The position numbers and the translations under genes were made by a program. From NCBI RefSeq assembly GCF_020096995.1, contig NZ_CP083692.1, positions 992,001-1,056,000 on the forward strand: a stretch of 64,000 nt of DNA. The letters run 5' to 3'. The notes under the pieces were generated by a model. It saw only the letters and a list, made by a program, of their open reading frames with translations, searched no databases and was not told where the DNA came from. Shown one piece after another: positions 7,803 through 53,435 of the stretch. The stretch is from Leucobacter sp. Psy1. GTDB lineage: Bacteria > Actinomycetota > Actinomycetes > Actinomycetales > Microbacteriaceae. How positions within the stretch are numbered: the stretch's first letter is position 1; every line of letters starts with the position of its first letter.

Positions 7803-7917
7803 GCACACTACACCTGATTCCTCCCTGCCGCGCTCCATACCCGGAGCCATCCGGCACGAGACCCACCACCGTCTCGGGGAGTCCACCTCTCACGTCACAA
7901 GCTGAATGGAGGACCCG

Positions 7918-8808: not shown

Positions 8809-8888
8809 GCACGCGCCCCACCCCTTTCCGCCCCGTCAGGGGATCACCACCCACCGACATCACCATCCACATCACAAGGAGTACCAAC

Positions 8889-9116: not shown

Positions 9117-9124
9117 GAGGCGAC

Positions 9125-11091: not shown

Positions 11092-11098
11092 CTGATTC

Positions 11099-11133
11099 GA
11101 GAGGGAGGGGCGTCGTGGACGCCCCTCCCTCTC
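11099..11133 (+). terminator. Hairpin terminator after E1 beta
   Basis: A perfect 16-pair stem (GAGAGGGAGGGGCGTC with its complement) and GTG loop. There is no T-tract, as is usual in high-GC actinobacteria. It separates the E1 genes from the SDR at 11156. Confidence 0.8.
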
Positions 11134-11155
11134 TGCTTGATAGACAGGATGGGAA

Positions 11156-11980: not shown

Positions 11981-11997
11981 GCGCACGGTTTCCCTGC

Positions 11998-12744
11998 TCA
12001 GGTCGACGTATCTGAAGCGGCGAGTCGTTCGCGCTCGCGCAACTCGTGGAGCCATGCGAAGTGAGCGTCGATTGCCCGAGTCGCGCCGCCCTCGTCCCGC
12101 GCCTCGACGGCTGCGAGAACGGCGCCGTGCACCGTACGCATCGTCTCGAAATCTTGCTCCAGTGTGAGGTGGCGGAGAGTGCCGTGCAGCACGGCACTGA
12201 GCATCTGGGAAAAGAAGAGCAGCGCTGGGGAGTCTGAGGCAGCAAAGAGTGCCTGATGGAACATCATGTCGGCGGCGAGGAGTTCTCTTCCGTCCTCTGT
12301 TCGGTTCATCGCCTCGTTACTCTTGCGCAACTCGGCCAGATGCGCTTCTGTCGCGTTGGCGCACGCCTCGATGGCCGCTTGACGCTCGAGCGCGTGCCGC
12401 ATGGAGATGAGTGATTCGACTGTGATCTGCTCGAGCATGAGCCCGAGGACCAGGCCACTTCCGGCCTGCTCCGCCTGCATGCCCGAGTAGAAAGTTCCGA
12501 GCCGCTCCTTCCGCGTGAGAATCCCCATCGACTCGAGTTTTCCAATGCGGTCGCGTAGCGTGTTCCGGCTGATATTGAGTTGCTGCGTCAATTCCCGCTC
12601 GCTCGGGAGACGGTCGCCTGGTGACATTTCGCCGAGAAGACCGACCAACGCGACGAGTGCCGCGTCATCGAGCATGCTCGCGTAGAACTGATGGTTCTTC
12701 AACGAAACGCTCGGAGAGAATGGCGGAAGGCCGAGAGGCTTCAT
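11998..12744 (-). CDS. FadR/FCD-type GntR family regulator
   Basis: A 248-residue one-component regulator: winged helix at about 35-100 (GDRLPSERELTQQLNISRNTLRDRI is the GntR recognition segment) and an all-alpha FCD effector domain with the metal-binding His residues in FHQALF and VHGAVLAAV. Start chosen at 12744, with GGGAGGA seven bases upstream; an ATG at 12777 lacks one. FCD proteins usually sense small organic acids. It is the most likely reader of the TGGTnnnACCA sites at 2535, 3685 and 3729, so it would couple the pathway to its substrate. Confidence 0.88.
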   Translation of the reverse strand: MKPLGLPPFSPSVSLKNHQFYASMLDDAALVALVGLLGEMSPGDRLPSERELTQQLNISRNTLRDRIGKLESMGILTRKERLGTFYSGMQAEQAGSGLVLGLMLEQITVESLISMRHALERQAAIEACANATEAHLAELRKSNEAMNRTEDGRELLAADMMFHQALFAASDSPALLFFSQMLSAVLHGTLRHLTLEQDFETMRTVHGAVLAAVEARDEGGATRAIDAHFAWLHELRERERLAASDTST

Positions 12745-12814
12745 GCGGAGATCCTCCCGACTCAAAGCGAATTCCAACAGGTGCGGCGTCTAAAGCGATC
12801 ATATTCCACACCGA

Positions 12815-12840
12815 CAGAAATATTTCTGAACCCGGTTCAG
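12815..12840. promoter_or_regulatory. Two overlapping palindromes upstream of the GntR gene
   Basis: CAGAAATATTTCTG (12815-12828) is a perfect 14-base palindrome and CTGAACCCGGTTCAG (12826-12840) a perfect dyad with a one-base centre; they share CTG. They lie 70-96 bases upstream of the GntR start and about 45 bases from the msrB stop. They could be an autoregulatory site, but differ from the TGGTnnnACCA sites. Confidence 0.5.
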
Positions 12841-12884
12841 TTGTGACAGTGGCTCTCGCGTTGATCGGAACTCAGCGATTGCTC

Positions 12885-13286
12885 CTAGGACTCAGCCGTG
12901 AAGTTCAGCGACAGCGAGTTCATGCAGTAGCGGTTGCCCGTCGGGGTGCCGAAACCGTCGGGGAAGACGTGGCCCAGGTGACTGCCGCAGCGGGCGCAGC
13001 GCACCTCGGTCCGCTCCATGCCGAGCGAGTGGTCTTCGAGCAGTTCGACCGCTTCAGGGCGCACCGAGTCGTAAAAGCTCGGCCAGCCGCAGTGCGAATC
13101 GAACTTGGTGCCGCTCTCGAAGAGTTCGTTGCCGCACGCGGCGCAGGTGTAGAACCCCGCGCGATCCTCATCGAGCAGTTCACCGGTCCAGGCGCGCTCG
13201 GTGCCCGCCTCGCGCAGCACCGCGTACTGCTCGTCTCCGAGCTCTGCGCGCCACTCTTCTTCGGACTTCTCGACCTCGTATGCCAT
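12885..13286 (-). CDS. msrB: Peptide-methionine (R)-S-oxide reductase
   Basis: A 133-residue MsrB that reduces R-methionine sulfoxide in damaged proteins, using thioredoxin. Two CxxC pairs (Cys48/51 and Cys97/100) bind structural zinc. The nucleophile is Cys121 in RYCMNSLSL, and Cys66 in SHCGWPSF may act as the recycling Cys. The length is normal. TAGAAT lies seven bases before the ATG, so the mRNA is probably leaderless. It stands alone, divergent from comB. Confidence 0.95.
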   Translation of the reverse strand: MAYEVEKSEEEWRAELGDEQYAVLREAGTERAWTGELLDEDRAGFYTCAACGNELFESGTKFDSHCGWPSFYDSVRPEAVELLEDHSLGMERTEVRCARCGSHLGHVFPDGFGTPTGNRYCMNSLSLNFTAES

Positions 13287-13385
13287 GCCGACGATTCTAC
13301 GCCTTTCGGCCGAATCTCGATGTGGCGGCGGGCGGCTCCGTCGTCACGGGACGACACACTCCCGAGTTCTCGGCGACCCGCCTCA

Positions 13386-13391
13386 TAGGCT
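13386..13391 (+). promoter_or_regulatory. -10 box of leaderless comB
   Basis: TAGGCT fits the actinobacterial TANNNT -10 element. The ATG begins eight bases downstream, so transcription likely starts at or next to it. Confidence 0.45.
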
Positions 13392-13398
13392 GGAAGCC

Positions 13399-13920
13399 AT
13401 GACGGATCCTCGCGCTCAAGCCACGTATCAGGTGCGACTCGACTGGGGGACCGGGGCGCTGGAGCGCCTCGCTGCAGCTGAGATCGTCGTCGTGGTCGAC
13501 GCCATCGGTACGAACCAGGCGTTCATCGATCGCGTGTCGGAGCGATCCGCCGGTGCCACGGTGTTCGTCGGCTCACTGCGCAACGCCACGGCGACGGCGC
13601 AGGCTATTCTCGACGAGCAGGTGGCGCGCGGCGGTCGCACCGCGATCAACCTGGTGCTCGCCGGCGACGAGGGCCGGTTCGCGGTCGAGGACTACCTGGC
13701 TGCCGGTGCGATCGGCGATGCGCTCTCGGCGCGCGGCATCGACCACACGGCGCCGGATGTCGCCGTCGCCACCGAGGGGTTCCGTCCGCTCGGTCGTGCG
13801 GTGAAGCATCTGCTCTCCGCAAGCGCTGCCGGTCTGGAGCTGTCGGCCTCGGGCCGCCGCGACGAGGTCATCGCCGCAGCGCAGGTCGACGCCGAGGCCG
13901 AGGCCACTCGCTGGAAGTGA
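13399..13920 (+). CDS. ComB-like 2-phosphosulfolactate phosphatase family protein
   Basis: A 173-residue protein of the ComB family. Family features are the early VVVVDAIGTN strand-loop, the central GSLRNAT region, and LVLAGDEGRFAVEDYLAAGAI, where the Asp and Glu residues are proposed to bind Mg2+. ComB hydrolyses 2-phosphosulfolactate in methanogens. Homologues are widespread in bacteria without coenzyme M, and the true substrate there is often unknown. It is shorter than the archaeal protein (about 230), so a subset of loops is missing. It converges on the organosulfur operon, which may be coincidence. Confidence 0.75.
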   Translation: MTDPRAQATYQVRLDWGTGALERLAAAEIVVVVDAIGTNQAFIDRVSERSAGATVFVGSLRNATATAQAILDEQVARGGRTAINLVLAGDEGRFAVEDYLAAGAIGDALSARGIDHTAPDVAVATEGFRPLGRAVKHLLSASAAGLELSASGRRDEVIAAAQVDAEAEATRWK

Positions 13921-13956
13921 ACCCCGGCCGCGGCAACGTTCGTACCGAGCAGAACG

Positions 13957-14517
13957 CTACCGAGCGACGACCTGCCGCTTCGACGAGATCACACCGGTGT
14001 CGAAGCCGGCGAGGTGCAGCCCGCCGTGGAAGCGGGCGTGCTCGATCTTGATGCACCGGTCCATGACGACGTCGAGTCCCGCTGACTCCGCGATCTGCGC
14101 GGCCTCCTCGTTCCAGGAGCCGAGCTGCAGCCACAGCGCCTGCGCACCCACATCGACGGCTTCCTGAGCGACGCCGGGCAGGTCATCGTGCTTCCGGAAT
14201 ACGTCGACGATGTCGGGCACCACCGGCAGGTCGGCGAGCGAGTCGTACGCCGGATGGCCCAGGATCTCGTCGGCGCGCGGGTTCACGAAGTACACGTCGT
14301 ACGGTGAGCTCGAGAGCAGGTAGGTCGCCACGAAGTAGCTCGCACGTGCCGGGTTGTTCGAGGCGCCGACGATCGCGACGGACTTCGCCCGGCGCAGGAT
14401 CCCCAGCCGCGACGCGGCGCCAGGGGCCTGCCAGGACCGGGCGTCCGAGGCAGCCGGCGCCGAAGCGGGAACCGCGCAGGCCGCGCCGGAGGATGCAGGG
14501 GTGGTGGCGTCGCTCAT
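13957..14517 (-). CDS. CoA-binding (YccU-like Rossmann) protein
   Basis: A 186-residue protein of the CoA-binding domain superfamily. After a 40-residue Ala-rich lead, SVAIVGASNNPARASYFVATYL forms the nucleotide-binding fold, followed by VYFVNPRADEILG and VVMDRCIKIEH, all characteristic of small YccU-like proteins. No enzyme activity is established for the family. The ATG at 14517 overlaps the metY stop (ATGA) and has AGGAG upstream. In my recollection, this gene commonly follows metY in actinobacteria, so the pairing is probably functional, perhaps in redox or CoA sensing. Confidence 0.85.
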   Translation of the reverse strand: MSDATTPASSGAACAVPASAPAASDARSWQAPGAASRLGILRRAKSVAIVGASNNPARASYFVATYLLSSSPYDVYFVNPRADEILGHPAYDSLADLPVVPDIVDVFRKHDDLPGVAQEAVDVGAQALWLQLGSWNEEAAQIAESAGLDVVMDRCIKIEHARFHGGLHLAGFDTGVISSKRQVVAR

Positions 14518-15848
14518 CGGTGTGCTCCTGTCGCGAGAGTGAGGGCCTGATCCAGATCCCACACGATATCTTCCGGATCCTCGATGCCGACCGAGATCCG
14601 GATGAGGTCGGCGGGCACGCCGGCCGCTTCCAGCTGCTCGGGGGTGAGCTGCTGGTGCGTCGTCGAACCCGGGTGGATGACGAGCGTGCGCGCGTCGCCG
14701 ATGTTCGCGAGGTGGCTCGCGAGCTGCAGCGACTCGATGAGTTTCTCACCGGTTTCGCGGGCGGCCTGCAGGCGCTCGCCCTCGGAGTCGAAGTCGCCGG
14801 AGGGGCGGACCCCGAATGCGAACACGGACCCGGGGCCGAGCGGGAAGTACTTCTGCGCGCGGTCCTGATGCGGGTGACCCTCGAGTCCCGCCCAGGTCAC
14901 GAACGAGACGCGCGGATCGCTCGCCAGCCACTCGGCGACGACACGCGCGTTGGCGACGTGGGCGTCGATGCGCTGGGGGAGCGTCTCGATGCCCTGCAGC
15001 AGGTTGAACGCCGACTGCGGGCTGAGCGCCGGCCCGATGTCGCGCAGCTGTTCGGTGCGCAGCTTGGTGAGAAACCCGTACTCTCCGAAGTTGTCCCACC
15101 AGCGGATGCCGCCGTACGATTCGACGGGCTCCGTCATCGAGGGGAACTTGCCGTTGCCCCAGTTGAACGTGCCAGCCTCCACGACGACGCCGCCGAGCGT
15201 CGTGCCGTGCCCGCCGAGGAATTTCGTGACCGAGTGGATCACGATGTCGGCGCCGTGCTCGATCGGACGCGAGAGGTAGGGGGTGGAGAGCGTTGCATCG
15301 ACGACGAGGGGGATGCCCGCCTCGTGCGCTACGGCGGAGAGCCCCGCGATATCGGAGATCTCACCGCCGGGGTTGCCGATCGCCTCGACGTAGAGCACCT
15401 TCGTGTTCGGGCGGATCGCCTTGCGGAACTCCTCAGGGTCCGAGCTGGCGACGAACGTCGTCTCGACGCCGAACCGCCGCAGCGTCACGTCGAGCTGCGT
15501 CACGGTGCCACCGTAGAGCTGGGACGAGGCGACGACGTGATCGCCCTGCCCGACGAGCGCGGCGAACGTGATGAACTCGGCCGACATGCCGCTCGCCGTC
15601 GCCACCGCGCCGATGCCGCCCTCGAGGGAGGCGATGCGCTCTTCGAGCGCCGCCACCGTCGGGTTGCCGATGCGCGAGTAGATGTTGCCGTACTTCTGCA
15701 GCGCGAACAGGTTCGCGGCGTCCTTCGCGTCGTCGAAGACGAACGATGTCGTCTGGTAGATCGGCACGGCCCTCGCGCCGGTCGCAGCGTCGGGCGTTCC
15801 GCCCGCGTGCAGTGCTCGGGTGCGGAACCCGAACTGGTGCTCACTCAT
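14514..15848 (-). CDS. metY: O-acetylhomoserine sulfhydrylase (MetY type)
   Basis: A 444-residue PLP enzyme of the Cys/Met metabolism family. It makes homocysteine from O-acetylhomoserine and sulfide. The Lys that binds PLP is in HSVTKFLGGHG; TSGMSAEF and YVEAIGNPGG are further cofactor contacts. The long form and the TTSFVF, KYGNIYSRIGNPT block mark MetY rather than MetB. It sits in an organosulfur operon, where it could directly capture released sulfite-derived sulfide. Overlaps by ATGA with both neighbours. Confidence 0.93.
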   Translation of the reverse strand: MSEHQFGFRTRALHAGGTPDAATGARAVPIYQTTSFVFDDAKDAANLFALQKYGNIYSRIGNPTVAALEERIASLEGGIGAVATASGMSAEFITFAALVGQGDHVVASSQLYGGTVTQLDVTLRRFGVETTFVASSDPEEFRKAIRPNTKVLYVEAIGNPGGEISDIAGLSAVAHEAGIPLVVDATLSTPYLSRPIEHGADIVIHSVTKFLGGHGTTLGGVVVEAGTFNWGNGKFPSMTEPVESYGGIRWWDNFGEYGFLTKLRTEQLRDIGPALSPQSAFNLLQGIETLPQRIDAHVANARVVAEWLASDPRVSFVTWAGLEGHPHQDRAQKYFPLGPGSVFAFGVRPSGDFDSEGERLQAARETGEKLIESLQLASHLANIGDARTLVIHPGSTTHQQLTPEQLEAAGVPADLIRISVGIEDPEDIVWDLDQALTLATGAHR

Positions 15849-17848
15849 CTGGTCTCCTTCGGTGCGGTGATGTCGTTCAGGCGTGCGAGGCGCACGGCTT
15901 CGCGCACCTCGTCGACGGCCCAGGGGTTCTGCAAGCTCGTGGTGTCTCCGAGCGTATCGCCCTGCCAGAGCTGCGCGAGCAGGCGGCGCAGGATCTTGCC
16001 CGAGCGGGTCTTCGGGAGTTCGGGTACGCGCACGATGATCCGGGGCTTCGCGATCGGCCCGATGTCACGGGTGACGCGGGCGCGCAGCTCCTCGTGCTCG
16101 GCACCGCCCGCTGCACCGTCGACCACGAACGCGGCGACGGCCTGACCGGTCAGCGGATCGGCGACACCGGTCACGCCCGCCTCTCCGACGGCGGGGTGCG
16201 AGACGAGGGACGACTCGATCTCGATGGTCGAGAGGCGGTGCCCCGAGACGTTCACGACGTCGTCCAGCCTGCCGAGGATCCACACGCAACCGTCGGCATC
16301 CACCGTCGCCCCGTCGCCGGCCACGTAGTAGGCGCCGTGCTCACCGCGGCCCGCGAACGGGGCCCAGTACGAGTCGCGGTATCGCTCGGGGTTGCCCCAC
16401 ACGGTGCGGGCCATGCCTGGCCAGGGGCGCCGGACCACGAGCGTACCCGAGCGGCCGGGCGCAACCGGTTCGCCATCATCGTCGACGACGGCGACATCGA
16501 TTCCCGGCAGCGCCACGGTGGCCGACCCCGGTTTCAGCGTGGTGACGCCCGGCAGCGGCGCGATCATGGCCGCCCCGGTCTCCGACTGCCACCAGGTATC
16601 GACCACCGGCGTCTCGTCCCGACCGAAGTTGCGGCGGAACCAGACCCACGCCTCGGGGTTGATCGCCTCGCCGACGGTGCCCAGCAGCCGGATCGACGAG
16701 AGATCGTGCCCGATCGGCAAGTCGTCGCCGAACCAGGTCATGAGGGTCCGGATCAGGGTGGGTGCCGTGTAGTAGACGGTCACCCCGTACCGCTCGATGA
16801 TCTCGAGGTGGCGCTCGCGATGCGGCGCGTCGGGGGTGCCCTCGTAGATGACCTGCGTGAGCCCGTTCGAGAGGGGGCCGTAGATCTCGTAGGTGTGCGC
16901 AGTCACCCACGCGAGGTCCGCCGTGCACCAGTGCACGTCATCCGGCTTCGCGTCGAAGTGGGCCCAGTGCGCCCAGCTGGCGTGCGTGAGGTAGCCGCCC
17001 GAGGTGTGCACGAGCCCCTTCGGCTTCCCGGTCGTGCCTGAGGTGTAGATGATGAAGAGCGGGTGCTCGGCGTCGAAGGCGACCGGTTCGTGGACGTCGG
17101 ACTGGGCGTCGACGAGTTCGTCCCACCAGACGTCGCGGCCTTCCACCCACGGGATGTCCTGTCCGGTACGGCGAACGACGAGCACGTGCTCGAGGTGCTC
17201 CAAGCGGTCCGCCGCCGCATCTGCGGTCGACTTCACCTCGACCCGCTTTCCGCGGCGGTGCTGACCGTCAGAGGTGACGAGGAGCTTCGCTCGCGTGTCC
17301 TGCAGGCGGAACCGCACGGCTTCGGCGGAGAAGCCGCCGAACACCAGCGAGTGCACGGCACCGATGCGTGCACAGGCGAGAGCGATGACCACCGTCTCGA
17401 TGAGGACGGGCAGGTAGACGACGACCCGGTCGCCAGACTCGATGCCGAGCGCCGTGAGTGCGTGGGCGGCGCGTGAGACCCGGCGCTGCAGGTCGGCGTA
17501 GGTCACCGACACGCGGTCTCCCGGTTCCCCTTCGAAGTGGAGGGCCACCTTCGAACCGAGTCCGGCGTCCACTTGCCGGTCGACGCAGTTCGCGGCGACG
17601 TTCAGCGTGCCTCCCGCGAACCAGGTCGCTTCTGGCACGGTGAGTCCGTCGGGCCCTTCGACCGGGGGCGACCAGGTGTGCGCCGTGTGCCACGGCTCCG
17701 CCCAGTCGAGGCGTGCGGCCGCGCGTTCCCAGAAGGCGACGGGGTCGGCGGATGCTTCGGCGTAGATCGAGGCATCGACATTCGCCTGGTCGGCGAAGTC
17801 GGCCGGAGCAGGGTAGCTCCGTGTCTCGTGGAGGCGTGCTTCGGTCAT
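15845..17848 (-). CDS. Acetyl-CoA synthetase-like AMP-forming ligase
   Basis: A 667-residue AMP-forming acyl-CoA ligase. Family signatures are the P-loop TSGTTGKPKG, WWQSETG, the adenylate-binding YYVAGDGA and the C-terminal Lys in PKTRSGKILRR, which is commonly acetylated for control. Length and the N-terminal domain match acetyl-CoA synthetase; propionate or another short acid is possible. It stands between a DszA-like monooxygenase (3 bases) and metY (ATGA overlap), so its substrate may be the organic acid left after desulfonation. The chromosome may hold another acs. Confidence 0.87.
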   Translation of the reverse strand: MTEARLHETRSYPAPADFADQANVDASIYAEASADPVAFWERAAARLDWAEPWHTAHTWSPPVEGPDGLTVPEATWFAGGTLNVAANCVDRQVDAGLGSKVALHFEGEPGDRVSVTYADLQRRVSRAAHALTALGIESGDRVVVYLPVLIETVVIALACARIGAVHSLVFGGFSAEAVRFRLQDTRAKLLVTSDGQHRRGKRVEVKSTADAAADRLEHLEHVLVVRRTGQDIPWVEGRDVWWDELVDAQSDVHEPVAFDAEHPLFIIYTSGTTGKPKGLVHTSGGYLTHASWAHWAHFDAKPDDVHWCTADLAWVTAHTYEIYGPLSNGLTQVIYEGTPDAPHRERHLEIIERYGVTVYYTAPTLIRTLMTWFGDDLPIGHDLSSIRLLGTVGEAINPEAWVWFRRNFGRDETPVVDTWWQSETGAAMIAPLPGVTTLKPGSATVALPGIDVAVVDDDGEPVAPGRSGTLVVRRPWPGMARTVWGNPERYRDSYWAPFAGRGEHGAYYVAGDGATVDADGCVWILGRLDDVVNVSGHRLSTIEIESSLVSHPAVGEAGVTGVADPLTGQAVAAFVVDGAAGGAEHEELRARVTRDIGPIAKPRIIVRVPELPKTRSGKILRRLLAQLWQGDTLGDTTSLQNPWAVDEVREAVRLARLNDITAPKETR

Positions 17849-44257: not shown

Positions 44258-44872
44258 CTACCCCGTGAAGAACTCGTGCACCAGCCTCCCGGCGATGATG
44301 AGCATGACGATGGCGACTCCGGCGTCGAGGATCCTCCAGGCGCGCGGGTTCGCGAACAGGGGCGTCAGCGCGCGCGCCCCGTAGCCGAGGGCGAAGAACC
44401 ACGCGAGGCTGGCGGCGGCGCCTCCGGCGACGAACCACCACCGCCCTGGGTCTCCCTGGGCATTGCCGATGGAGCCCATGAGCACCATGGTGTCGAGGTA
44501 CACGTGCGGGTTGAGGTACGTGATCGCGAGGCAGGCGAGCACGGTGCGCCGTAAAGAACGCGACTCGCCGGCGCCTGTGACCATTGCTGCGGGGCGCATG
44601 GCTCGTCGCGCCGCGGTCACGGCGTATCCGAGCAGAAAGAGCACGCCGCCCCACAGGACGACATCGAGTACGAGGGGAGCGCGTGCGACCACAAAACCGA
44701 TCCCGGCGACGCCGACGAACTCGAGCAGAGCATCGGTGAGGCCGCAGATGAGCACGACCGGGAGAACGTGGCGGCGCTGGATGCCCTGCCTGAGGACGAA
44801 CGCGTTCTGGGCGCCGATCGCGACGATCAGCGAGAGTCCGCTGCCGGCGCCGAGGAGAAATGGGGTGAACAC
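44258..44872 (-). CDS. lysE: LysE/ArgO-type amino-acid exporter
   Basis: A 204-residue exporter with five to six hydrophobic segments. IVAIGAQNAFVLRQGI near the start, and ITYLNPHVYLDTMVLMGSIG with the family Asn-Pro, are LysE hallmarks. It exports Lys and Arg, preventing their toxic build-up. Divergent from a LysR of the LysG/ArgP type. The divergent region 44873-44963 is the probable control site. Confidence 0.92.
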   Translation of the reverse strand: MFTPFLLGAGSGLSLIVAIGAQNAFVLRQGIQRRHVLPVVLICGLTDALLEFVGVAGIGFVVARAPLVLDVVLWGGVLFLLGYAVTAARRAMRPAAMVTGAGESRSLRRTVLACLAITYLNPHVYLDTMVLMGSIGNAQGDPGRWWFVAGGAAASLAWFFALGYGARALTPLFANPRAWRILDAGVAIVMLIIAGRLVHEFFTG

Positions 44873-44963
44873 GGAGACGACGTTACGGTCCGAGGCCCGT
44901 GTCTCGCATCTGCAGCATACCTAAACTTTCTACAGTTGCATGAATTCTGCTTCACTAGGACGC

Positions 44964-45848
44964 ATGCAGCTCCCGATCGAGTATCTGAGTACGTTTGCGA
45001 CCATCGTGCGAGAGGGGAGCTTCGAGGGTGCCGCCCGCGCACTCCGCGTGACCCCTTCTGCGATCAGTCAGCGCGTCCGCCTCATGGAGGAGCGAGTGGG
45101 ATCGGTCCTGCTGCAGCGCAGCCGGCCCGTCGCGGTGACGGAAGCCGGAGCGACACTCCTGCGCGCCGCCCGGCAGATCGACCGCGTCGTCGACGACGTC
45201 GCCCGTGAGCTCGGCGACGGTTCAGTGCGCGGCGCCGTGGTACCGATCGTGGTGAACGCCGATTCGCTGGCGACCTGGTTCATGCCGGCGCTGGCGCGAG
45301 CGGCACGCGAGACTGACGCGCGCTTCGAGGTGCTCCGCGCCGATGAGACCGTCTCGACCGAGCAGTTGCGCCGCGGCGCCGCCATGGCGGCGGTGACCGC
45401 CACACGAGCGGCCGTGCCAGGGTGCGTCTCGCATCGCCTGGGACGGATGCGCTATCGGGCCGTGGCGAGCCCAGCCTTCGCCGCAGCGCACTTCGGTGAG
45501 GGCGTGACGCCGAGCGCGCTGGCCACCGCGCCCATGCTCGAGTTCGACCGGCACGATGTCTTCCAGCAGCGGTTCGTCAGGCGCATCACCCGGGCCGCGA
45601 TCGATCCTCCCAGGCATTTCGTGCCCTCTTCGTCCGAGTTCGCGCGAGCCATCGAGCTGGACATGGGGTGGGGCATGCTCCCGGCGGCGCAGTGCGACGC
45701 GCAGCTGGCGCAGGGCAGTCTCGTCGAGCTCGGCGCTGATTCCTCGATCGCGCTCGCCCTCTACTGGCAGCGGTGGAACCTCGAATCGCCGATGCTCGAC
45801 GCGCTCACTCGGGTGATCACCGAGGCGGCCGCCGAGTCCCTCGAGTGA
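44964..45848 (+). CDS. lysG: LysG/ArgP-type LysR regulator
   Basis: A 294-residue LysR regulator: HTH from LSTFATIVREGSFEGAARALRVTPSAISQRVRLMEE, effector domain with VNADSLATWFMPAL, the block shared by ArgP/LysG proteins. It activates lysE when Lys, Arg or His builds up. AGGA lies before ATG 44964; an ATG 44940 has none. Confidence 0.9.
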   Translation: MQLPIEYLSTFATIVREGSFEGAARALRVTPSAISQRVRLMEERVGSVLLQRSRPVAVTEAGATLLRAARQIDRVVDDVARELGDGSVRGAVVPIVVNADSLATWFMPALARAARETDARFEVLRADETVSTEQLRRGAAMAAVTATRAAVPGCVSHRLGRMRYRAVASPAFAAAHFGEGVTPSALATAPMLEFDRHDVFQQRFVRRITRAAIDPPRHFVPSSSEFARAIELDMGWGMLPAAQCDAQLAQGSLVELGADSSIALALYWQRWNLESPMLDALTRVITEAAAESLE

Positions 45849-45876
45849 TACCTCGGGTCGGTGACGATCTCCCGGC

Positions 45877-47628
45877 TCAGGTGCGGGGGAGCCTGATCCG
45901 GAACTCCGTTCCCTCGCCCTCAGTGCTCGAGACGTCCATCTGACCGCCGTGCGCGAGGACGATCGCGCGCGTGATGGTGAGTCCGAGCCCCACGCCCTGC
46001 ACGGCGTTTCGCGTGGCGGTCGACGCCCGGAAGAACCGGGTGAAGAGCTGGCCCTGCTCGTCGGCGGGGATCCCGATGCCCGTGTCGCGGACGGAGATCT
46101 CCGAGGTCCGCGATTCGTCGGTCACGGTGACGCGCACCTCGCCGCCGGCCGGAGTGAACTTGATGGCATTGGATAGCAGATTGTCGATCGCCTGCCCGAG
46201 TCTGCCCGGGTCTGCCTGGAGCTGCACGGGGTGGTCGGGGACAGTGAGCACGAGTGCGACGCCCTGCCGGTCCGCGTGGGGTGCGGCCGAGGTGACGGCC
46301 GTCGAGGCGAGCGCAGCGACGTCGGTGTCCACGGGGTCGAGGGGGAAACGACCCGATTCGACCTGGGCGGTGAAGAGGAGATCGCCGACGAGCGCGAGGA
46401 GGCGGCCGGCATTTCGCTCGATGATATCGACGAAGCTCAGCTGCTCGGCGGTGAGCGGTGCGCCGGGGTTGTCGCGCAGGAGATCGAGGAAGCCGATGAT
46501 CGAGCTGAGCGGGGTGCGGAGCTCGTGAGAGATCATGCCCACGAACTCGTCCTTCATTCTGACCACCTCGACGGTCCTCGTCTCGTCGGTCACGACGAGG
46601 AGGTAGCCGTGCTGGTGGCCGTCGCCCCCGGTGCGACGGGTGACGGTGAGGCGCGCGGGAACCTCTGAGCCGCTCGATGTGAGAATCGGAATGTCGAGCT
46701 CGACGTGCTCGCCGGCCTCAACCCGTTCGAAGAGGACCTGCGCACCGGTCTTGGGTGACGAACCTGGCACAGACTCCGATGACGCATTGCACTCGCGATC
46801 GTCGACGAGTGCGCGGAGCGAACGGTCGGGGAACAGGTCAGTGATTGTTCCTCCGGCGAGCGCTTCGGCGGCAGCGCGGCCGAACAGGTGCTCGGCGCCA
46901 GGGTTCCATGCCGTGATCCGGCCATCGGCGTCGACCGCGATGACCGCCTGCGCGGTGATGGAGTCCCACAGGCTTTCGAAGGACGCGAGGAGCGCCTGGT
47001 ACTCGGCCTGACTTTCGCGCAGGCGCTGCACCATCGCCTGGTTCTCGGTGAGCGCCTGTGCCCGCTCATTCGCGAGCGCTTCGGCCTGTCGCGTGCGAGC
47101 GCGTTGCTGACGAGAGAGCTCATTCACCACGCCAGCCACCGTCGCGAAGACCAGAGGCGACACCACCCCGCGGAACCAGTCCGCCGCGCTCTCTGGAGGG
47201 TTTGCGATGTAGGGGAGCAGGATCATGAACGAGGTCAACCCGACGATCACGAAGACGTATCTGATGCCGGGGGCGGCGGCGAGCCACACCACCGGAATCA
47301 AGACGAGTGCGCCGTACAGCGACTGCGCACCCCCGGTCCCCGCGCGGAACAACCCGAACGCGATGATGTCGACCATCGGGATGATGTACACCCATTTGCC
47401 CGGAACCACTCCACGTGCGCTGATGACCGCGGCGACTACGGTGACCGCGACGATCAAGCCGATCCCGGCAAAGGCCACCGGCTCCGACGAGAAGTCGATG
47501 TCGGGGACGAACGAGGTGAGGATCACCGCGAGCAGCAGCGCCAGGAACGACGGCATCTGCTTGAGGAGCGGCGTCGGTTGATCGAGGAAGCGGTGCCAGC
47601 GGCTTTCGGGCGGAGCCGTGCGGGTCAC
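45877..47628 (-). CDS. PAS-containing sensor histidine kinase
   Basis: A 583-residue kinase. N-terminal membrane part with five to six helices (about 25-165, no recognised ligand domain), a short coiled coil, PAS domain (about 210-330, opening with AVIAVDADGRITAWNPGAE), DHp helices with phospho-His near residue 367 in MISHELRTPL, and an ATPase with N box NLLSNAIKFTP, G1 DTGIGIP and G2 GVGLGLT. GTG start at 47628 overlaps the stop of the 55-residue gene (GTGA). No dedicated response regulator adjoins it; the receiver in the operon is at 50978-52021, fused to a deacetylase. Confidence 0.9.
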   Translation of the reverse strand: MTRTAPPESRWHRFLDQPTPLLKQMPSFLALLLAVILTSFVPDIDFSSEPVAFAGIGLIVAVTVVAAVISARGVVPGKWVYIIPMVDIIAFGLFRAGTGGAQSLYGALVLIPVVWLAAAPGIRYVFVIVGLTSFMILLPYIANPPESAADWFRGVVSPLVFATVAGVVNELSRQQRARTRQAEALANERAQALTENQAMVQRLRESQAEYQALLASFESLWDSITAQAVIAVDADGRITAWNPGAEHLFGRAAAEALAGGTITDLFPDRSLRALVDDRECNASSESVPGSSPKTGAQVLFERVEAGEHVELDIPILTSSGSEVPARLTVTRRTGGDGHQHGYLLVVTDETRTVEVVRMKDEFVGMISHELRTPLSSIIGFLDLLRDNPGAPLTAEQLSFVDIIERNAGRLLALVGDLLFTAQVESGRFPLDPVDTDVAALASTAVTSAAPHADRQGVALVLTVPDHPVQLQADPGRLGQAIDNLLSNAIKFTPAGGEVRVTVTDESRTSEISVRDTGIGIPADEQGQLFTRFFRASTATRNAVQGVGLGLTITRAIVLAHGGQMDVSSTEGEGTEFRIRLPRT

Positions 47629-47792
47629 AGGAAGCACCCTCTGAGCACGACGATGCCCGCGACCACCACGAGCGCGATGAGGGCCTGGGGAATGAGGCGC
47701 CACTCGCTCCGGCGATCAGCGTCGATCTCGATCGACTCGTCGATCCCCGCGACCGATTCCGGCTCGGGAGCCCGGTGCCTGCCATCGCTCAT
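47625..47792 (-). CDS. 55-residue single-pass membrane protein
   Basis: A 55-residue gene joined by four-base overlaps to both the GT2 and kinase genes, which supports its reality. The first 31 residues are polar and acidic; one hydrophobic helix (about 33-51, PQALIALVVVAGIVVLRGC) ends at the C-terminus. No homologue is recognised. It could be a small regulator linking sensor and synthase, or a polymer-assembly subunit. Confidence 0.72.
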   Translation of the reverse strand: MSDGRHRAPEPESVAGIDESIEIDADRRSEWRLIPQALIALVVVAGIVVLRGCFL

Positions 47793-49276
47793 GAGACCAC
47801 TCTCCCGACTTTCTCCGTCTTCACCCACGACGCATCGGCCCGGCGCCACTCCTTGATGTACGAGTCCACCGTGATCGCGCAGAGCAGTGAGCCGTACCCG
47901 AACACGTAGATGCAGAGCCCTGCCAGGAACCTGCCTCCCGGGAGGCGCTCGAGCCACCGCGCGGCCCAGGCTCCCAGCAGCGAGAGCGGGCCCCAGAGAT
48001 AGAGGATCGCACTCACCACGAACCGGTCGCGCGGAGTGAGTGCGCCGATCCAGTCCACGAGCAGCGTCTCGAAGACGCTCGGGAAGATCGCGATCGCCAT
48101 GAGGATCATCGCGCCGAGTCCGGGGAAGAGCAGCGCTTCACGCCACGAGCTCCGTCCCGTGCGTCCATCCAGCTGCACGGCGAAGATGATCGAGTAGAGA
48201 TACGTGCACGCTGCGAGGATCCACATGAAGCGGAAGACGGGCTCCGCGATGTCGCTGTGCAGCACGAGCAGCGTCATCAGCCCGGCAGCTGCGAGCAGCA
48301 TGAACACGGGCAGTAGGAGGATGCTGAACCAGCTGATCCCGAACGAGAGGCTGCCGAGCCGGTGCGCACGGCTCGGCCTGAACCACAGCCTGCGGTAGAT
48401 CGACGTGAGCTGCACGTTGCCGCGCGCCCACCTCAGGCGCTGCTTCCATAGCGCGTCGACGGTGCGCGGTTCCTCGGCGAGGACGACGGCGTGCGGCTCG
48501 AACACCATGCGCCGCCCGTGCAGTTGCCCCTCGAACGTCGTCATGGTGTCCTCGGCGAGGGTGCCCGTCGGAATGCGCCCGCCGATCGCCTCGAGATTCG
48601 CACGCGAGTGCAACTGGGCACCGCCCGCGAGGCATGCCACGGCACCGAGCACGTTCTGCGTGCGTCGCGATCCGAGCTGCGCCAGCACGTACTCCATACC
48701 GATGAACCGCGTGAGATAGTTGCGATCCTGACTGCCTTCGGCGATGTAGGCGGTGACCGCCCCAACCCGTTCGTCGGCGAGGTGCCGCGTCATCTTCCGC
48801 AGCGAGTCGCGCGCGAAGATGACATCGGCGTCCATGATGAGCACCGCCTCGGCCCAGTCCTCCGCAAGGACTCGCGAGATCCCGTGATTGAGCGTGTGCG
48901 CTTTCCCCTCGCCGCCGACGTCGCGCCGCAGGTGGAAGACCCGGCCGGGGTGTGCTGCGGCGCGCCGCAGCACCTCATCGGGCGTGTGGTCGGTGGACGC
49001 GTCATCGACGACGTAGATCCGCAACCGATCGTCCGGGTACTCGAGGCTCAGCATGCGTTCGATCGAAGCGCCGATGACGAGCCCCTCGTTCCACGCCGGC
49101 ACGATCACGGCGACGCGCGGGGCATACGGTGCCGCGCGACGGTAGTGATTCTTCAACGCGTGGAGCGGGAGCACCAGGAACTGGTAGAGCGTGTTGAAGA
49201 CCGGAGTGGTACCGACGAGCACGCACGCCAGCAGGAAGACGACGTACGCGATCTCGAAACCGGTCAGTTCGCTCAT
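47789..49276 (-). CDS. Processive family-2 glycosyltransferase (HAS/PgaC-like)
   Basis: A 495-residue membrane glycosyltransferase of the hyaluronan synthase/PgaC/BcsA group. Catalytic features: VVDDAST (Asp91-92), DAD (149-151), AEDT (Asp253), and Q279RLRW as the QxxRW acceptor motif that marks a processive enzyme. About six hydrophobic segments: one or two N-terminal (11-40), the rest after residue 300. Polymerises a UDP-sugar, probably N-acetylglucosamine or a relative, and moves it through the membrane. ATGA overlap with the PHP gene. Confidence 0.9.
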   Translation of the reverse strand: MSELTGFEIAYVVFLLACVLVGTTPVFNTLYQFLVLPLHALKNHYRRAAPYAPRVAVIVPAWNEGLVIGASIERMLSLEYPDDRLRIYVVDDASTDHTPDEVLRRAAAHPGRVFHLRRDVGGEGKAHTLNHGISRVLAEDWAEAVLIMDADVIFARDSLRKMTRHLADERVGAVTAYIAEGSQDRNYLTRFIGMEYVLAQLGSRRTQNVLGAVACLAGGAQLHSRANLEAIGGRIPTGTLAEDTMTTFEGQLHGRRMVFEPHAVVLAEEPRTVDALWKQRLRWARGNVQLTSIYRRLWFRPSRAHRLGSLSFGISWFSILLLPVFMLLAAAGLMTLLVLHSDIAEPVFRFMWILAACTYLYSIIFAVQLDGRTGRSSWREALLFPGLGAMILMAIAIFPSVFETLLVDWIGALTPRDRFVVSAILYLWGPLSLLGAWAARWLERLPGGRFLAGLCIYVFGYGSLLCAITVDSYIKEWRRADASWVKTEKVGRVVS

Positions 49277-49992
49277 GCCTGCCCACCAGGATCATCCAGC
49301 AGGGTGCGCACGCGGTCGTAGCGCCCCACATCCGCCGCGACATGACTGTCGGTCGAGGCGACGAGCGCGGCGCCGGCCTGACGGAGCGCTCGGAGCGAAT
49401 CCGGAGTCGGGCAGCCCCACTTCTCATTCACCTCGACGAGCGTGTCCGTGCGCGCCGCAGTGCTCGCCCAGGCGGCGATGCGCTCGCCGCCGAGCTGAGC
49501 TTCGGAGAGCCCCACCTTCGGCAGGATCGAGAAGCAGTGGGCGAGCTGATTCCCCGGGTATCGCTCCATGGCCGTGATCAGGGCCTCGACCAGCGTGTCG
49601 AGGGCGTCCTCCGCTTGCCACCCGTCCGCGAGACGCTCGCGGACGGCACCGGGGCCGATCGGACCAGCGGACGTCGGGAACTGATGATCGGCGATGAGGA
49701 TCCGGTCGATGCCTGCGGGAAGCGCGGGGGCGTCGAGTCCGCCGGTCGTGTCGAGGAGCTTCGCTTCGACGCCGGTGACGACCGTGAGGCCCTCCGGCAC
49801 CGTGAGGGCGCCGACCGCGGCGACGAACTCGGGCACCCAGGTGGTGCTCACGCGCACGTGATCGACAAGGCGGAGCGTATCGAGTCCGGCGTCATGCGCC
49901 GCGCTGACGTTCTCGGCGAGCGTGGAGACCGCGTCGTCGGAGAACGTCGAGTGGACGTGGTGATCGCCGCGGAGGAGGGCCGCCGTGCTCAC
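49273..49992 (-). CDS. PHP-domain phosphoesterase
   Basis: A 239-residue single-domain PHP protein: HVHSTFSDD motif I (metal site), LVDHVR and the later His/Asp in LVASTDSHVAADVG. Such domains include histidinol phosphatase and polymerase-associated phosphatases. No HisK-type sequence context is evident. In this operon it may clip a phosphate from a sugar intermediate or lipid carrier. Joined by ATGA to neighbours. Confidence 0.87.
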   Translation of the reverse strand: MSTAALLRGDHHVHSTFSDDAVSTLAENVSAAHDAGLDTLRLVDHVRVSTTWVPEFVAAVGALTVPEGLTVVTGVEAKLLDTTGGLDAPALPAGIDRILIADHQFPTSAGPIGPGAVRERLADGWQAEDALDTLVEALITAMERYPGNQLAHCFSILPKVGLSEAQLGGERIAAWASTAARTDTLVEVNEKWGCPTPDSLRALRQAGAALVASTDSHVAADVGRYDRVRTLLDDPGGQA

Positions 49993-50978
49993 GCGTCGTC
50001 CTGATGGCCGGCGTGAGGCGACTCGAGGACGTCGGCGACCTCGACGATGACGTCCTCGAGGAAGCGGACGGACGCGATCTCCCGGAAATCGACGCGAGCC
50101 GGGATCTCGCGGTCGAGGAACAGATCGACGACGAGCGACGGGATGTCGACACCAGCGGCGATCGTCAACGGAAGCGCGCCGGGGAAGCGGGGGTTCACCT
50201 CGAGCAGCATGGCACGGCCGGCGCGATCGCGCCGCAGCTGCACGTTGGCTACTCCGACCAGGCCGATGGCGCGCGCGACCGCGGCGGCCGTTTCTTCGAG
50301 TTCCGGATCCCGCACGGTGCGCCCGGCGATCGAGACGCCCGAGTCGACGCGCGCCCGGGTGCGCGGCACCGCGGCCACGACCGAACCCGAGGCGTCGGCG
50401 ATGACATCGACCGAGTACTCTTCACCGGGCAGGAGATCCTGAACGATGAGCCCCTCGTCGGTCGGCAAAGCTTCGAGCGCTGCGCGATCCTCGACGCGTC
50501 GGATGCCCCGGCTCCCTGCGCCCTGCCGGGGCTTCGCGAACACCGGGAACTCCCAGTCCACCGCGAGTGCATCGGGGCCGGCAAGTACGGTGCGCGGCGC
50601 CCGGCCAGTGCTCGCGCACCGTTCGGCGAGGGCGAGCTTGTCGAGCGAGACCTCCAAGGTGTCGGCGGAGGGTGCGGCGAGCACCGCGGGTTTCAGCTCT
50701 TCGCGTCGACCCGCAAGTGCGAGGAGTTCGACGTCGACCGTCGAGATCACGAGATCCAGGTCGTCCGCTGCGACCATGTCGGCTATCGCGGTCACGAATG
50801 TCGTGTCCTTGCCAGGGGGGAGGAGCCTACGGTGCGCGGGGGGCACGAGGTAGAGGCCGCTCGCCCAGCCGTCCATATCCGCGGCGAATACCGTCACATC
50901 GCTGCGATGCAGCAGGGATCGGATCACCGCCACCCCCGCAGGGCCACCGGCACCGGTCACGAGTACGCGTGCAGTCAT
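49989..50978 (-). CDS. ATP-grasp ligase, carbamoyl-phosphate-synthase-like
   Basis: A 329-residue ATP-grasp protein: Rossmann-like preatp-grasp VLVTGAGGPAGVAVIRSLL, SLDKLALAERC, FPVFAKPRQGAGSRGIRRV (ATP loop) and LLEVNPRFPGALPLT with the Mg ligands Glu and Asn. Such enzymes join a carboxylate to an amine or thiol through an acyl phosphate. In the operon it may add a residue to the amine freed by the deacetylase, but that is inference. It starts in TGATG (one-base) overlap with the deacetylase stop. Confidence 0.87.
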   Translation of the reverse strand: MTARVLVTGAGGPAGVAVIRSLLHRSDVTVFAADMDGWASGLYLVPPAHRRLLPPGKDTTFVTAIADMVAADDLDLVISTVDVELLALAGRREELKPAVLAAPSADTLEVSLDKLALAERCASTGRAPRTVLAGPDALAVDWEFPVFAKPRQGAGSRGIRRVEDRAALEALPTDEGLIVQDLLPGEEYSVDVIADASGSVVAAVPRTRARVDSGVSIAGRTVRDPELEETAAAVARAIGLVGVANVQLRRDRAGRAMLLEVNPRFPGALPLTIAAGVDIPSLVVDLFLDREIPARVDFREIASVRFLEDVIVEVADVLESPHAGHQDDA

Positions 50979-52021
50979 CAGGTCTCCAGTCGGTGGTGTT
51001 CGAACGCTCGCGCGGGCTCGGAGCTCTCACGGACGACCTCGAGGGGCTCGACCGCTGTTCCGCCCCCGAATCGCGTCCAGTAGCGGGCCGTCGCGCTCAC
51101 GAAGTCGGGGTCGAGATAGTCGCGGCTCGCGGTTTGGGAGTCGAAGCACCGCAGCAGTTCGAGTTTGCGTTCCAAGAACTGCTCCACCCGAACGAACTTC
51201 GTCGGCCGATAGTCGATGGTGGCGGAGGGACTCTGGTAGCAGGCGACCGTTGCGACCCTCCGCGTTGCGACGACGGTCGCCTCGCTCACGGCACGGTGGT
51301 CCTGGTGGCGGTCGTGGATCGAGTGCGTGTAGACGATCGTCGGCTCGACCTCGCGCACGACCTCCTCGATGAGGCGGACTGTCGGGCCGCCGCTCGGGAT
51401 CTCGGTGTCGACGAGGTCCTTCAGGAACAGGCGCGCGCCGAGCATCTCCGCGGCGGCGAGCGACTCGTCCTGCCGACTGTCGGCGTCACCGCCTCTGGCG
51501 CCCCGGGTGAGGGTGAGGATCGTGATCGCGTCACCCGCCGCGGCGTGCGCGGCGAGAGTGGCACCGGCGCCGAGCTCGACATCGTCGGGGTGCGCGCCGA
51601 TCGCGAGTACGACCTCGCGGTGCGGTCTGGCGTCTCTCCGTGCACGGTTCTCCGCGGCGAGACGCGTCACGGTTTCCACGAGTCGGGTCGCGTCGAGCGG
51701 CTTCGTCAGGAACTCGTCGGCCTGAGCCCTCAGCGCCGAGACCGCGTAGTCGACGGAGACGTGCGCCGTCATGACGACCACCGGCACATCGGGGACCCGG
51801 GCGCGGAGCTGCTCGATGAGCTCGAGTCCGCTGATGCCGGGCATTTCGATGTCGGTGACGACGACATCTGGAGTGCGAGCTGTCGCGTTCGCGAGCGCGG
51901 TCTCGCCGTCCTCCGCGACATCGACGGAGCAACCGCCTCGCCGTTCCAGCATCATCCGCACGAGCAGTGCGACATCGGGATCGTCATCGACGACCAGAAC
52001 GTGCGGTGCGACTTCCGACAT
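50978..52021 (-). CDS. Receiver domain fused to PIG-L/LmbE-type deacetylase
   Basis: A 347-residue fusion. Residues 1-120 are a response-regulator receiver, complete: acidic pocket Asp12-14, phospho-acceptor Asp57, Thr85 and Lys107. A 15-residue linker (RRDARPHRE) leads to a PIG-L domain (137-347): HPDD at 144-147 and the second zinc site HQDH (His238, His241), as in GlcNAc-PI and MshB-type de-N-acetylases. No DNA-binding or GGDEF domain is present, so phosphorylation presumably alters enzyme activity. First gene of a six-gene operon with a sensor kinase at its end. AGGAGG lies nine bases before the ATG. I do not recall this pair being described as a system. Confidence 0.93.
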   Translation of the reverse strand: MSEVAPHVLVVDDDPDVALLVRMMLERRGGCSVDVAEDGETALANATARTPDVVVTDIEMPGISGLELIEQLRARVPDVPVVVMTAHVSVDYAVSALRAQADEFLTKPLDATRLVETVTRLAAENRARRDARPHREVVLAIGAHPDDVELGAGATLAAHAAAGDAITILTLTRGARGGDADSRQDESLAAAEMLGARLFLKDLVDTEIPSGGPTVRLIEEVVREVEPTIVYTHSIHDRHQDHRAVSEATVVATRRVATVACYQSPSATIDYRPTKFVRVEQFLERKLELLRCFDSQTASRDYLDPDFVSATARYWTRFGGGTAVEPLEVVRESSEPARAFEHHRLET

Positions 52022-52040
52022 CTGTGGCGTCCTCCTCGAT

Positions 52041-52064
52041 GCCCGCTCGGATACGCGAGCGGGC
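52041..52064 (-). other. Hairpin in the leader of the receiver-deacetylase operon
   Basis: Nine-pair stem GCCCGCTCG with CGAGCGGGC, six-base loop. It ends five bases upstream of the AGGAGG of the first gene, so it may control translation or act as a leader element. Confidence 0.6.
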
Positions 52065-52068
52065 CAGC

Positions 52069-52098
52069 CTCATAGGCTTCCCCAAGCCCATGCATCAA
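52069..52098 (-). promoter_or_regulatory. Candidate promoter of the receiver-deacetylase operon
   Basis: On the minus strand, -35 TTGATG (52093-52098) and -10 TATGAG (52069-52074), 18 bases apart. The -10 is weak, and an AT-rich patch (CATACTTTT) nearby is an alternative. Confidence 0.35.
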
Positions 52099-52139
52099 AA
52101 GTATGTCATATGCGTTCCGCGATCCTCGGGTGTAGGTGA

Positions 52140-52167
52140 TTGCCCTTCGGGGGAGTGCGGGTAATGT
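52140..52167 (+). promoter_or_regulatory. Promoter of the small membrane protein gene
   Basis: -35 TTGCCC (52140-52145) and -10 TAATGT (52162-52167), 16 apart; the ATG at 52174 is six bases after the -10, so the mRNA is likely leaderless. Confidence 0.5.
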
Positions 52168-52173
52168 CGGAAT

Positions 52174-52434
52174 ATGAGCACATCATCTGAACTCACTTCA
52201 ACGTCGGGCTCGCTCTCCGCGATCATGCAGGATTGGCGAAAGGTGCTGGCGCTCGGGCTCCTCACGATCGTGACGCTCGGCATCGCTCTCGTCGCGCTGC
52301 GTTTCGCCGGTGTCCTGCTGCGGATGCTCGCAGGCCTGACCGTGACGGTCGGCGGACTGGCGGCGGCGATCCTCGCACTCCAACGCTTCGGCGGCCCCCT
52401 TCTCGGGCGTCGTGGGAGCGACCGGAACGGGTAG
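52174..52434 (+). CDS. Small membrane protein, unknown function
   Basis: An 86-residue protein with two hydrophobic segments (about 25-45 and 48-68) and polar ends. No family recognised. A leaderless promoter precedes it. It is followed within five bases by an SRPBCC gene, so both are probably co-transcribed. Confidence 0.7.
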   Translation: MSTSSELTSTSGSLSAIMQDWRKVLALGLLTIVTLGIALVALRFAGVLLRMLAGLTVTVGGLAAAILALQRFGGPLLGRRGSDRNG

Positions 52435-52438
52435 CGCC

Positions 52439-52927
52439 GTGCGCGTGCGAACGCAGTTCGCGGTTCCGTGCTCCGCAGAAACCGCGTGGGCGGCGGTGCA
52501 CGCGCCCGCTGTTGCGGCACGCCTGTACGCCCCGCTGATCGTCATGCGGCCTGAGAGCGACCTCCCGGATCGATTCGACTCGGGGGATCGGGTTCGCGTC
52601 CGTCTGCGGCTCTGGGGTCGGCTGCCGATCGGCGCGCAGTTGATCTCGATCGAGGATTCGGGGGCGGAGGACGGCTCGGCCGGCGGACGGACCATGCACG
52701 ATGTCGGTCGACCGCTCTCGGGTCCGCTCGCGTTGCTCTCGGGTTGGCACCATCGGATCACCATCCTGCCGGTGACGGCACGGGGGGCGATATGGCGCGA
52801 TGAGCTCAGCGTCTCGGGCACGGTCGCTCCGCTGTTCTGGCCCGTGCTCGCGGTGATGTGGCAGTGGCGCCGAATCAGACTGGAGCGGCTGGCGCGCTCC
52901 TGGGAGGCGCGCCAGCCGACTGCGTGA
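52439..52927 (+). CDS. SRPBCC-superfamily (START/Bet v1-like) protein
   Basis: A 162-residue protein whose VRVRTQFAVPCSAETAWAAV opening and closing helix with WRDELSV fit the SRPBCC ligand-binding fold. I chose GTG 52439; GTG 52412 would overlap the upstream gene by 23 bases. Hydrophobic stretch APLFWPVLAVMWQW near the end could be amphipathic. Ligand unknown. Confidence 0.7.
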   Translation: MRVRTQFAVPCSAETAWAAVHAPAVAARLYAPLIVMRPESDLPDRFDSGDRVRVRLRLWGRLPIGAQLISIEDSGAEDGSAGGRTMHDVGRPLSGPLALLSGWHHRITILPVTARGAIWRDELSVSGTVAPLFWPVLAVMWQWRRIRLERLARSWEARQPTA

Positions 52928-52931
52928 TCGG

Positions 52932-53435
52932 CTAGCCCAGTTCCACTGCCGTGCGGAATCCGCGGTTCCATCGGAGTAGCGGATCCCCCTCGTCGTGGAG
53001 GCTGCCTCGCGTCACCTCGCCCGCGAGGAGGACCTGGTCGTTCACTGGGGTGGTCGAGTGCACCGTGCACCAGAGGGTGACCAGGGCGTCGGGAAGCCAG
53101 AGGGGACCTTCCGGCGAGGTCTCGGCACCAGCCGCGCCGAGGGCCTCGAGACGCTCCTGGCGCGTGTTCCGCGCGGTCAAGGCGCGCACGAGCGGGAGGT
53201 GCTGGGTCGCGAGCACCGACACCGCCCACGGAGCCCCCGAGGTGATGGGGGTGAGGGCGTCTCGTCCCTGCCCGACCGATACGGCGAGCGCGAAGGGGTC
53301 CACCGATGCGGTCAGCACCGACCCGGCGACGAAGAAGCGATCGATGTCGTCATCGCGGACGCTGATCAGCGTGACCCCGCTGCCGTAGAGAGCGAAGCTG
53401 TCGATCAGCGAGGGAGCGGTCGTCGTCGCGCTCAT
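52932..53435 (-). CDS. Flavin reductase family protein
   Basis: A 167-residue split-barrel flavin reductase (HpaC/SsuE-like domain): [38 protein letters not shown] as FMN-binding core, and FRTAVELG close. It supplies FMNH2 to two-component monooxygenases. ATG 53435 overlaps the sodA stop (ATGA). This is the only free flavin reductase in the window, while at least three LLM/DszC-type monooxygenases need one. Its cotranscription with SOD, under SoxR control, ties it to redox stress. Confidence 0.85.

Follow-up and report, generated by a model that had tools for sequence, protein, structure and literature searches.

Response regulators with an enzymatic output are known in several types (CheB, PleD/WspR, HD-GYP and PP2C), and among synthase-dependent polysaccharide systems Pga combines a small membrane protein gene beside a family 2 glycosyltransferase (GT2) gene with deacetylation and, in Gram-negatives, an exporter made of tetratricopeptide repeats (TPR) and a barrel. 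Here we describe an operon of Leucobacter sp. Psy1, in a window of 64,000 nucleotides (the whole stretch of DNA analysed; positions 992,001 to 1,056,000 of contig NZ_CP083692.1), whose first gene encodes a receiver fused to a PIG-L deacetylase domain (hereafter the fusion). Like CheB- and PleD-type regulators it joins a receiver to an enzyme and has a kinase adjacent, but its output is a PIG-L zinc deacetylase; response regulators with an enzyme as output and polysaccharide systems of the synthase-dependent type are both kinds already known. The GT2 of the operon is PgaC-like, which recalls Pga/Ica (PgaABCD, IcaADBC); the PgaB and IcaB deacetylases belong to a different family and act outside the cytosol, and we know of no ATP-grasp ligase or fused receiver in those systems. 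With BshB and MshB the fusion shares the PIG-L fold and metal motifs, and it differs from them by its receiver, its GT2 partner and a score below the BshB1 cut-off. What we take to be the nearest model locus known to us, yaiO-yaiX-yaiP-yaiS of E. coli K-12 (annotated as an outer membrane protein, an acyltransferase pseudogene split by IS2, a GT2 and a PIG-L protein), likewise has PIG-L near the genes of a GT2 and an outer-membrane protein, with YaiS 36% identical to the PIG-L half of the fusion over 166 amino acids and YaiP 22% identical to the operon GT2 over 259. However, its annotation shows no receiver, kinase, ATP-grasp or phosphatase, and YaiO gave no match to the TPR proteins described below; literature searches turned up no functional study of the four genes. 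Such searches also found neither a receiver-PIG-L fusion nor this gene set, the term PIG-L lacking a positive control. From protein families and patterns of conservation, we read the locus as an operon for a synthase-dependent surface polysaccharide, in which the cytosolic tailoring enzyme may itself be a response regulator switched by the adjacent kinase, a reading that we hold to be evenly balanced between right and wrong.

The six open reading frames lie on the reverse strand at 52021-45877, each sharing 1, 4, 4, 4 and 4 bases with the next in gene order, which bears out the six-gene operon with short overlaps of the original prediction:

52021-50978, reverse strand: receiver-PIG-L fusion, 347 amino acids
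50978-49989, reverse strand: ATP-grasp ligase (ATPgrasp_Ter), motifs KPRQGAGSRG at 149 and EVNPR at 260
49992-49273, reverse strand: PHP-domain phosphoesterase, motifs DHHVH at 10 and TDSH at 214
49276-47789, reverse strand: polymer-synthase-like GT2, motifs DDA at 91, DAD at 149, AED at 241 and QRLRW at 279
47792-47625, reverse strand: small protein of 55 amino acids with a single hydrophobic helix
47628-45877, reverse strand: membrane PAS-HisKA-HATPase histidine kinase, 583 amino acids, GTG start, H-box HELRTPL at 368 (H368)

Both halves of the fusion score well past the Pfam cut-offs within a single protein (Response_reg 111 bits, PIG-L 87 bits), the receiver occupying residues 8-118 and the PIG-L core residues 139-252, with a long helix of the receiver connecting them (residues 111-131 in the AlphaFold2 model). 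The complete set of phosphorelay residues that had been claimed is present exactly (D12-D14, D57, T85 and K107), giving the acid pair, Asp, Thr and Lys of a response-regulator fold. Of the two zinc motifs, HPDD stands at 144-147 as predicted, whilst HQDH is found at 239-242 and not at 238-241; together they are the HPDD/HxDH pair of the PIG-L/LmbE fold. Comparison with known structures agrees with this architecture: Foldseek matched the receiver half to Spo0F, DctD and NtrX and the PIG-L half to diacetylchitobiose deacetylases, BshB and TT1542. The AlphaFold2 model (predicted local distance difference test, pLDDT, 92.3; predicted template-modelling score, pTM, 0.71) has two well-formed domains, each confident internally, and at that pTM leaves the predicted orientation of one domain to the other unfixed.

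Conservation across 82 loci suggests that the switch and the enzyme of the fusion each depend on partner genes of their own. The PIG-L residues are intact in all 61 loci with ATP-grasp vs. 11 of 21 without (Fisher 1.6e-7), their loss affecting 10 of the 82 relatives, and the receiver residues are intact in all 62 loci with a kinase gene within 6.5 kb vs. nine of 20 without (1.2e-8, kinases counted by hidden Markov models, HMMs), so that all 11 receiver losses fall where the kinase is absent within that distance; at 10 kb the figures are 65 of 66 vs. six of 16. The crossed pairs gave nothing over the same loci, either for PIG-L residues and the kinase at 6.5 kb (p = 0.44) or for receiver residues and ATP-grasp (p = 1.0). 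After correction for ancestry the link between ATP-grasp and PIG-L survives (p = 5e-4), parsimony placing six PIG-L losses, all on ATP-grasp-less branches that make up 28% of tree length (binomial test), whereas the link between kinase and receiver does not (p = 0.10). Both residue/partner results fit a kinase-switched enzyme that serves a biosynthetic module. Three further proteins, from Occultella, Nocardioides and Serinicoccus (L114, L115 and L116), carry a receiver-like N-terminus minus the phosphorylation residues together with an intact PIG-L domain.

The compared set comprises the window, L033-L057 and L058-L118 minus the duplicates L067, L088 and L117, 84 tabulated loci from which L105 (cut by a contig end) and L118 (receiver region absent) were dropped. 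L058-L137 are the best 80 loci from a scan of named genomes, and the 20 loci L118-L137 were treated as stand-alone PIG-L, their BLAST matches falling in the PIG-L part; on short contigs (e.g. L091, L095, L100, L110 and L112) missing neighbours are uncertain. PIG-L intactness was scored on H144, D146, D147, H239, D241 and H242, and receiver intactness on positions 12, 13, 57, 85 and 107, where 12-13 is what we take to be the CheY-type acid pair; an earlier rule with the pair at 13-14, which flagged L091, L092 and L104, was replaced. Kinases were recounted by HMM because BLAST had missed divergent ones near the fusion in L093 and L103.

The fusion recurs widely and with recurring partners. It was found in at least 24 of 150 genomes of the same family (16 of 85 genera; up to 14 first-look candidates scored per genome) and in three of 396 genomes of the phylum, its own included (up to five candidates scored per genome), and was not found at E 1e-40 in two further genomes of the window's genus; the closest named relative among the matches listed, from Leucobacter tardus, is 91% identical. 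Relatives span Actinomycetota and Pseudomonadota, with carriers on the actinobacterial side in Leucobacter, Microbacterium, Leifsonia, Cellulomonas, Blastococcus and Promicromonospora and in Solirubrobacterales, Thermoleophilia and Ilumatobacteraceae bins, and further carriers in Burkholderiales, Rhodospirillales, Acidiferrobacterales and Marinicella bins and two Legionella species. A mobile-element origin was rejected, as plasmids gave no match to the fusion at 1e-30; viral contigs gave 24 matching loci, 23 in the PIG-L part and one in the receiver part, none with both.

GT2 and ATP-grasp occur in an identical 13 of the 150 family genomes, all inside the 24 with the fusion (hypergeometric 1.4e-12), the GT2 gene sitting apart from the fusion in two of the 13 (G055 and G125). 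Among the 82 loci, ATP-grasp is present in the stretch compared in 61, GT2 in 53, PHP in 49 and a kinase within 6.5 kb in 62; PHP is missing from eight of the loci that have both GT2 and ATP-grasp, every one of them Gram-negative, and relatives of a histidine phosphatase (named by Pfam in L111) occur in seven Gram-negative loci (L092, L101, L104, L109, L110, L111 and L112). A small gene of this kind recurs too: an open reading frame of 43-105 codons with one hydrophobic helix begins at the end of GT2 in 45 of 54 GT2-bearing loci (counted without a shuffled control), mostly overlapping it by 4 bases, also in L093, L109 and L111 of Pseudomonadota. Other neighbours include two gene families, represented in L044 by a carbon-nitrogen hydrolase (L044:7560-8396) and an aminotransferase (L044:11319-12515), each with a member near the gene of the fusion or of the kinase in 12 loci, 11 of them common to both families and mostly representing one shared chromosomal site; in Legionella drozanskii a glycosyl hydrolase family 81 gene (L101:1118-3268) lies immediately upstream of GT2.

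The kinase family of the window is present in 28 of the 150 family genomes, 22 of them among the 24 with the fusion (p = 7e-19). The kinase type beside the fusion varies, from the PAS type of the window and Blastococcus to PAS arrays (L084, L096), a CHASE3 hybrid (L056) and Hpt-bearing hybrids (L094, L099). As a control, two of 20 stand-alone PIG-L loci have a kinase no farther than 6.5 kb away, and for a random gene about 3% would be expected to lie that near a HisKA gene, given the eight in the window genome. The variety of kinases beside the fusion, set against their rarity at stand-alone PIG-L genes, argues that the fusion has been paired with kinases repeatedly.

Gram-negative relatives point to the likely product. 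In eight of their loci (L092, L093, L098, L101, L103, L109, L110 and L111) a TPR protein is encoded near GT2, ATP-grasp or the fusion, and L112 has fragments matching TPR proteins; all eight score far under the PgaA cut-off. By BLAST their C-termini form two groups, L093 with L103 and all the others. The L093 protein was modelled with eleven helices and twelve strands at modest confidence (pLDDT 68.6) and matches the porin KdgM (target template-modelling score, TM-score, 0.79), and the second group probably ends in a barrel likewise. These exporter-like proteins support an exported surface polysaccharide. A GlmS-like gene lies just downstream of the cluster in L103, and in L126 a UDP-GlcNAc 2-epimerase gene (GlcNAc, N-acetylglucosamine) follows a stand-alone PIG-L/GT2/ATP-grasp cluster; taken with the PgaC-like GT2 and the TPR proteins, they make an exported amino-sugar polysaccharide the best reading. 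The GT2, with the one-helix protein as membrane subunit, would then synthesise and extrude a GlcNAc-type chain, the PIG-L domain would deacetylate GlcNAc units in the precursor or nascent chain to leave free amines, and the ATP-grasp ligase would acylate the exposed amine, the donor probably being an amino acid or another carboxylate; this order of steps is suggested by the protein families. The PHP protein, or the histidine phosphatase in some Gram-negatives, might remove phosphate in the same pathway, and the adjacent membrane kinase would phosphorylate Asp57 of the fusion, turning the deacetylase up or down.

Several results weigh against a kinase-switched enzyme of polymer synthesis, at least in its simple form. 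The survey upheld the recurrence of the fusion and found it together with ATP-grasp, GT2 and kinase in 42 of the 82 loci, but the others do not keep the set and 29 of the 82 have no GT2 beside the fusion. Mapped on the tree with BLAST-counted kinases, the receiver-kinase link amounts to three losses plus a single gain (p = 0.098), and the stricter independent-pairs tests were not significant for PIG-L (p = 0.25) or for the receiver (p about 1, by the earlier acid-pair rule). The 6.5-kb bound was picked once the distances were known, the acid-pair rule changed between tests, and L080, with HLDD (Pro alone changed), was scored intact. At 4 kb, PIG-L loss is associated with the presence of a kinase (p = 3.6e-4), an effect of the module, which sets the kinase more than 4 kb away. 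The best structural match in the PDB to the L093 model is E. coli BcsC, a weak one (TM-score 0.31/0.25, root-mean-square deviation 17.5), and by sequence the PDB matches listed for this protein cover its TPR part only. Finally, nine of the 10 loci with a dead PIG-L domain (L046, L047, L049, L050, L053, L054, L083, L087 and L099) have an intact receiver and a kinase within 2 kb. With metal or catalytic residues lost, the PIG-L domain in these nine is, as its residues read, a pseudoenzyme serving as the output of a response regulator; since receiver and kinase outlast it, deacetylation is not the sole selected role. The originally predicted control of a surface polymer by the kinase gains from the residue/partner conservation and the exporter-like TPR proteins, and is weakened by these nine loci and by extra receivers.

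The extra receivers lead to the alternative that survives best, though we consider it unlikely: that the kinase signals mainly to other receivers or proteins, and that the fused receiver serves for dimerisation or docking, or as a phosphate sink, so that deacetylase activity would not be set by its phosphorylation. In 15 of 25 loci of the family and phylum samples, stand-alone receivers belonging to two families adjoin the fusion or the kinase, several sharing 4 bases with the kinase gene, and 44 of the 62 loci with a kinase have a further receiver domain no more than 6.5 kb away, whether stand-alone, in a hybrid kinase or in another regulator (an undercount at the 40-bit BLAST limit). Such a neighbour may be the real target of the kinase, or the signal may possibly be branched or relayed in species with extra receivers. 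The long C-terminal helix and the DctD fold match of the fused receiver resemble features of receivers that dimerise and are also in keeping with this alternative, as is the persistence of receiver and kinase beside the nine broken PIG-L domains. Yet no other receiver was detected up to 6.5 kb away in the window, in the two named Leucobacter loci L058 and L059 or in L044, L046 and L048, where fusion and kinase stand alone, and loss of the receiver residues is confined to loci where the kinase is missing at that distance. In L051 (same contig as L088), a row of four kinases of the window's family with stand-alone receivers follows the fusion gene (7905-17392).

That the product is a small glycoconjugate, a lipid-linked or thiol-like amino-sugar compound comparable to bacillithiol or mycothiol, and not a polymer, seems to us improbable. 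Bacillithiol synthesis likewise uses a glycosyltransferase, a PIG-L protein and a ligase, BshB is among the fold matches, and among NCBIfam models BshB1 scores best with the PIG-L half (93.7 bits, the cut-off being 182.5). However, the glycosyltransferase here is a membrane GT2 with QRLRW, nearest PgaC/NodC, and eight Gram-negative loci have the exporter-like TPR protein. An ordinary operon, in which the deacetylase is constitutive and the kinase, unrelated to it, is co-transcribed by chance, could account for the 11 of 82 loci that lost receiver residues, where phosphorylation seems dispensable, and for six family-sample genomes with the window's kinase family but no fusion, yet is very hard to credit when that family occurs in 22 of the 24 fusion genomes and differing kinase architectures stand beside the fusion in distant groups, vs. 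two of 20 stand-alone PIG-L loci.

Pfam confirms the ATP-grasp, PHP, GT2, HisKA, HATPase and PAS domains of the operon. Its ATP-grasp protein resembles PRK12767 models and PylC, the PRK12767-like scores lying below the Pfam/NCBIfam cut-offs, and its GT2 has the D, DxD, ED and QxxRW motifs of processive enzymes and six hydrophobic segments, and is putatively processive. The top NCBIfam model of the GT2, PgaC_IcaA, gave 115 bits where the cut-off is 422.3; neither this protein nor the PIG-L half scores as an equivalog of its top model, and membership of operon proteins in BshB or Pga was rejected on scores under the cut-offs. The window genome (G000), a single contig of 3.25 Mb, gave six PIG-L and eight HisKA matches. 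Beyond the end of the operon, at 44258-45848, lie what are presumably a divergent LysR-type regulator gene and a LysE-type exporter gene, named by eye. Rfam at the gathering score gave no RNA-element match in 45000-53000, and promoter and terminator scans, with sigma-70 as the only promoter consensus, stood at chance level.

Taking the kinase-switched polysaccharide operon further, we tentatively suggest that with the fusion the outputs of response regulators could gain a new class, a phospho-switched sugar de-N-acetylase at the core of an as yet unnamed, synthase-dependent polysaccharide machine (receiver-PIG-L, ATP-grasp, phosphatase, GT2 and one-helix subunit, with a BcsC-like exporter in Gram-negatives) that would add acyl or aminoacyl groups to newly exposed glucosamine amines inside the cell; some lineages would have lost the machine and kept the dead deacetylase, through which the same kinase would act by binding. 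If the reading is true, the acetylation of a surface sugar polymer would be set directly by phosphorylation of an enzyme, beyond gene regulation or cyclic diguanylate, and the yaiO, yaiP and yaiS genes of E. coli would gain a context. Easily grown actinobacteria would then offer a candidate amide-modified polysaccharide, and the enzyme-dead receivers would form a natural series on the role of a response regulator after its enzyme is lost.

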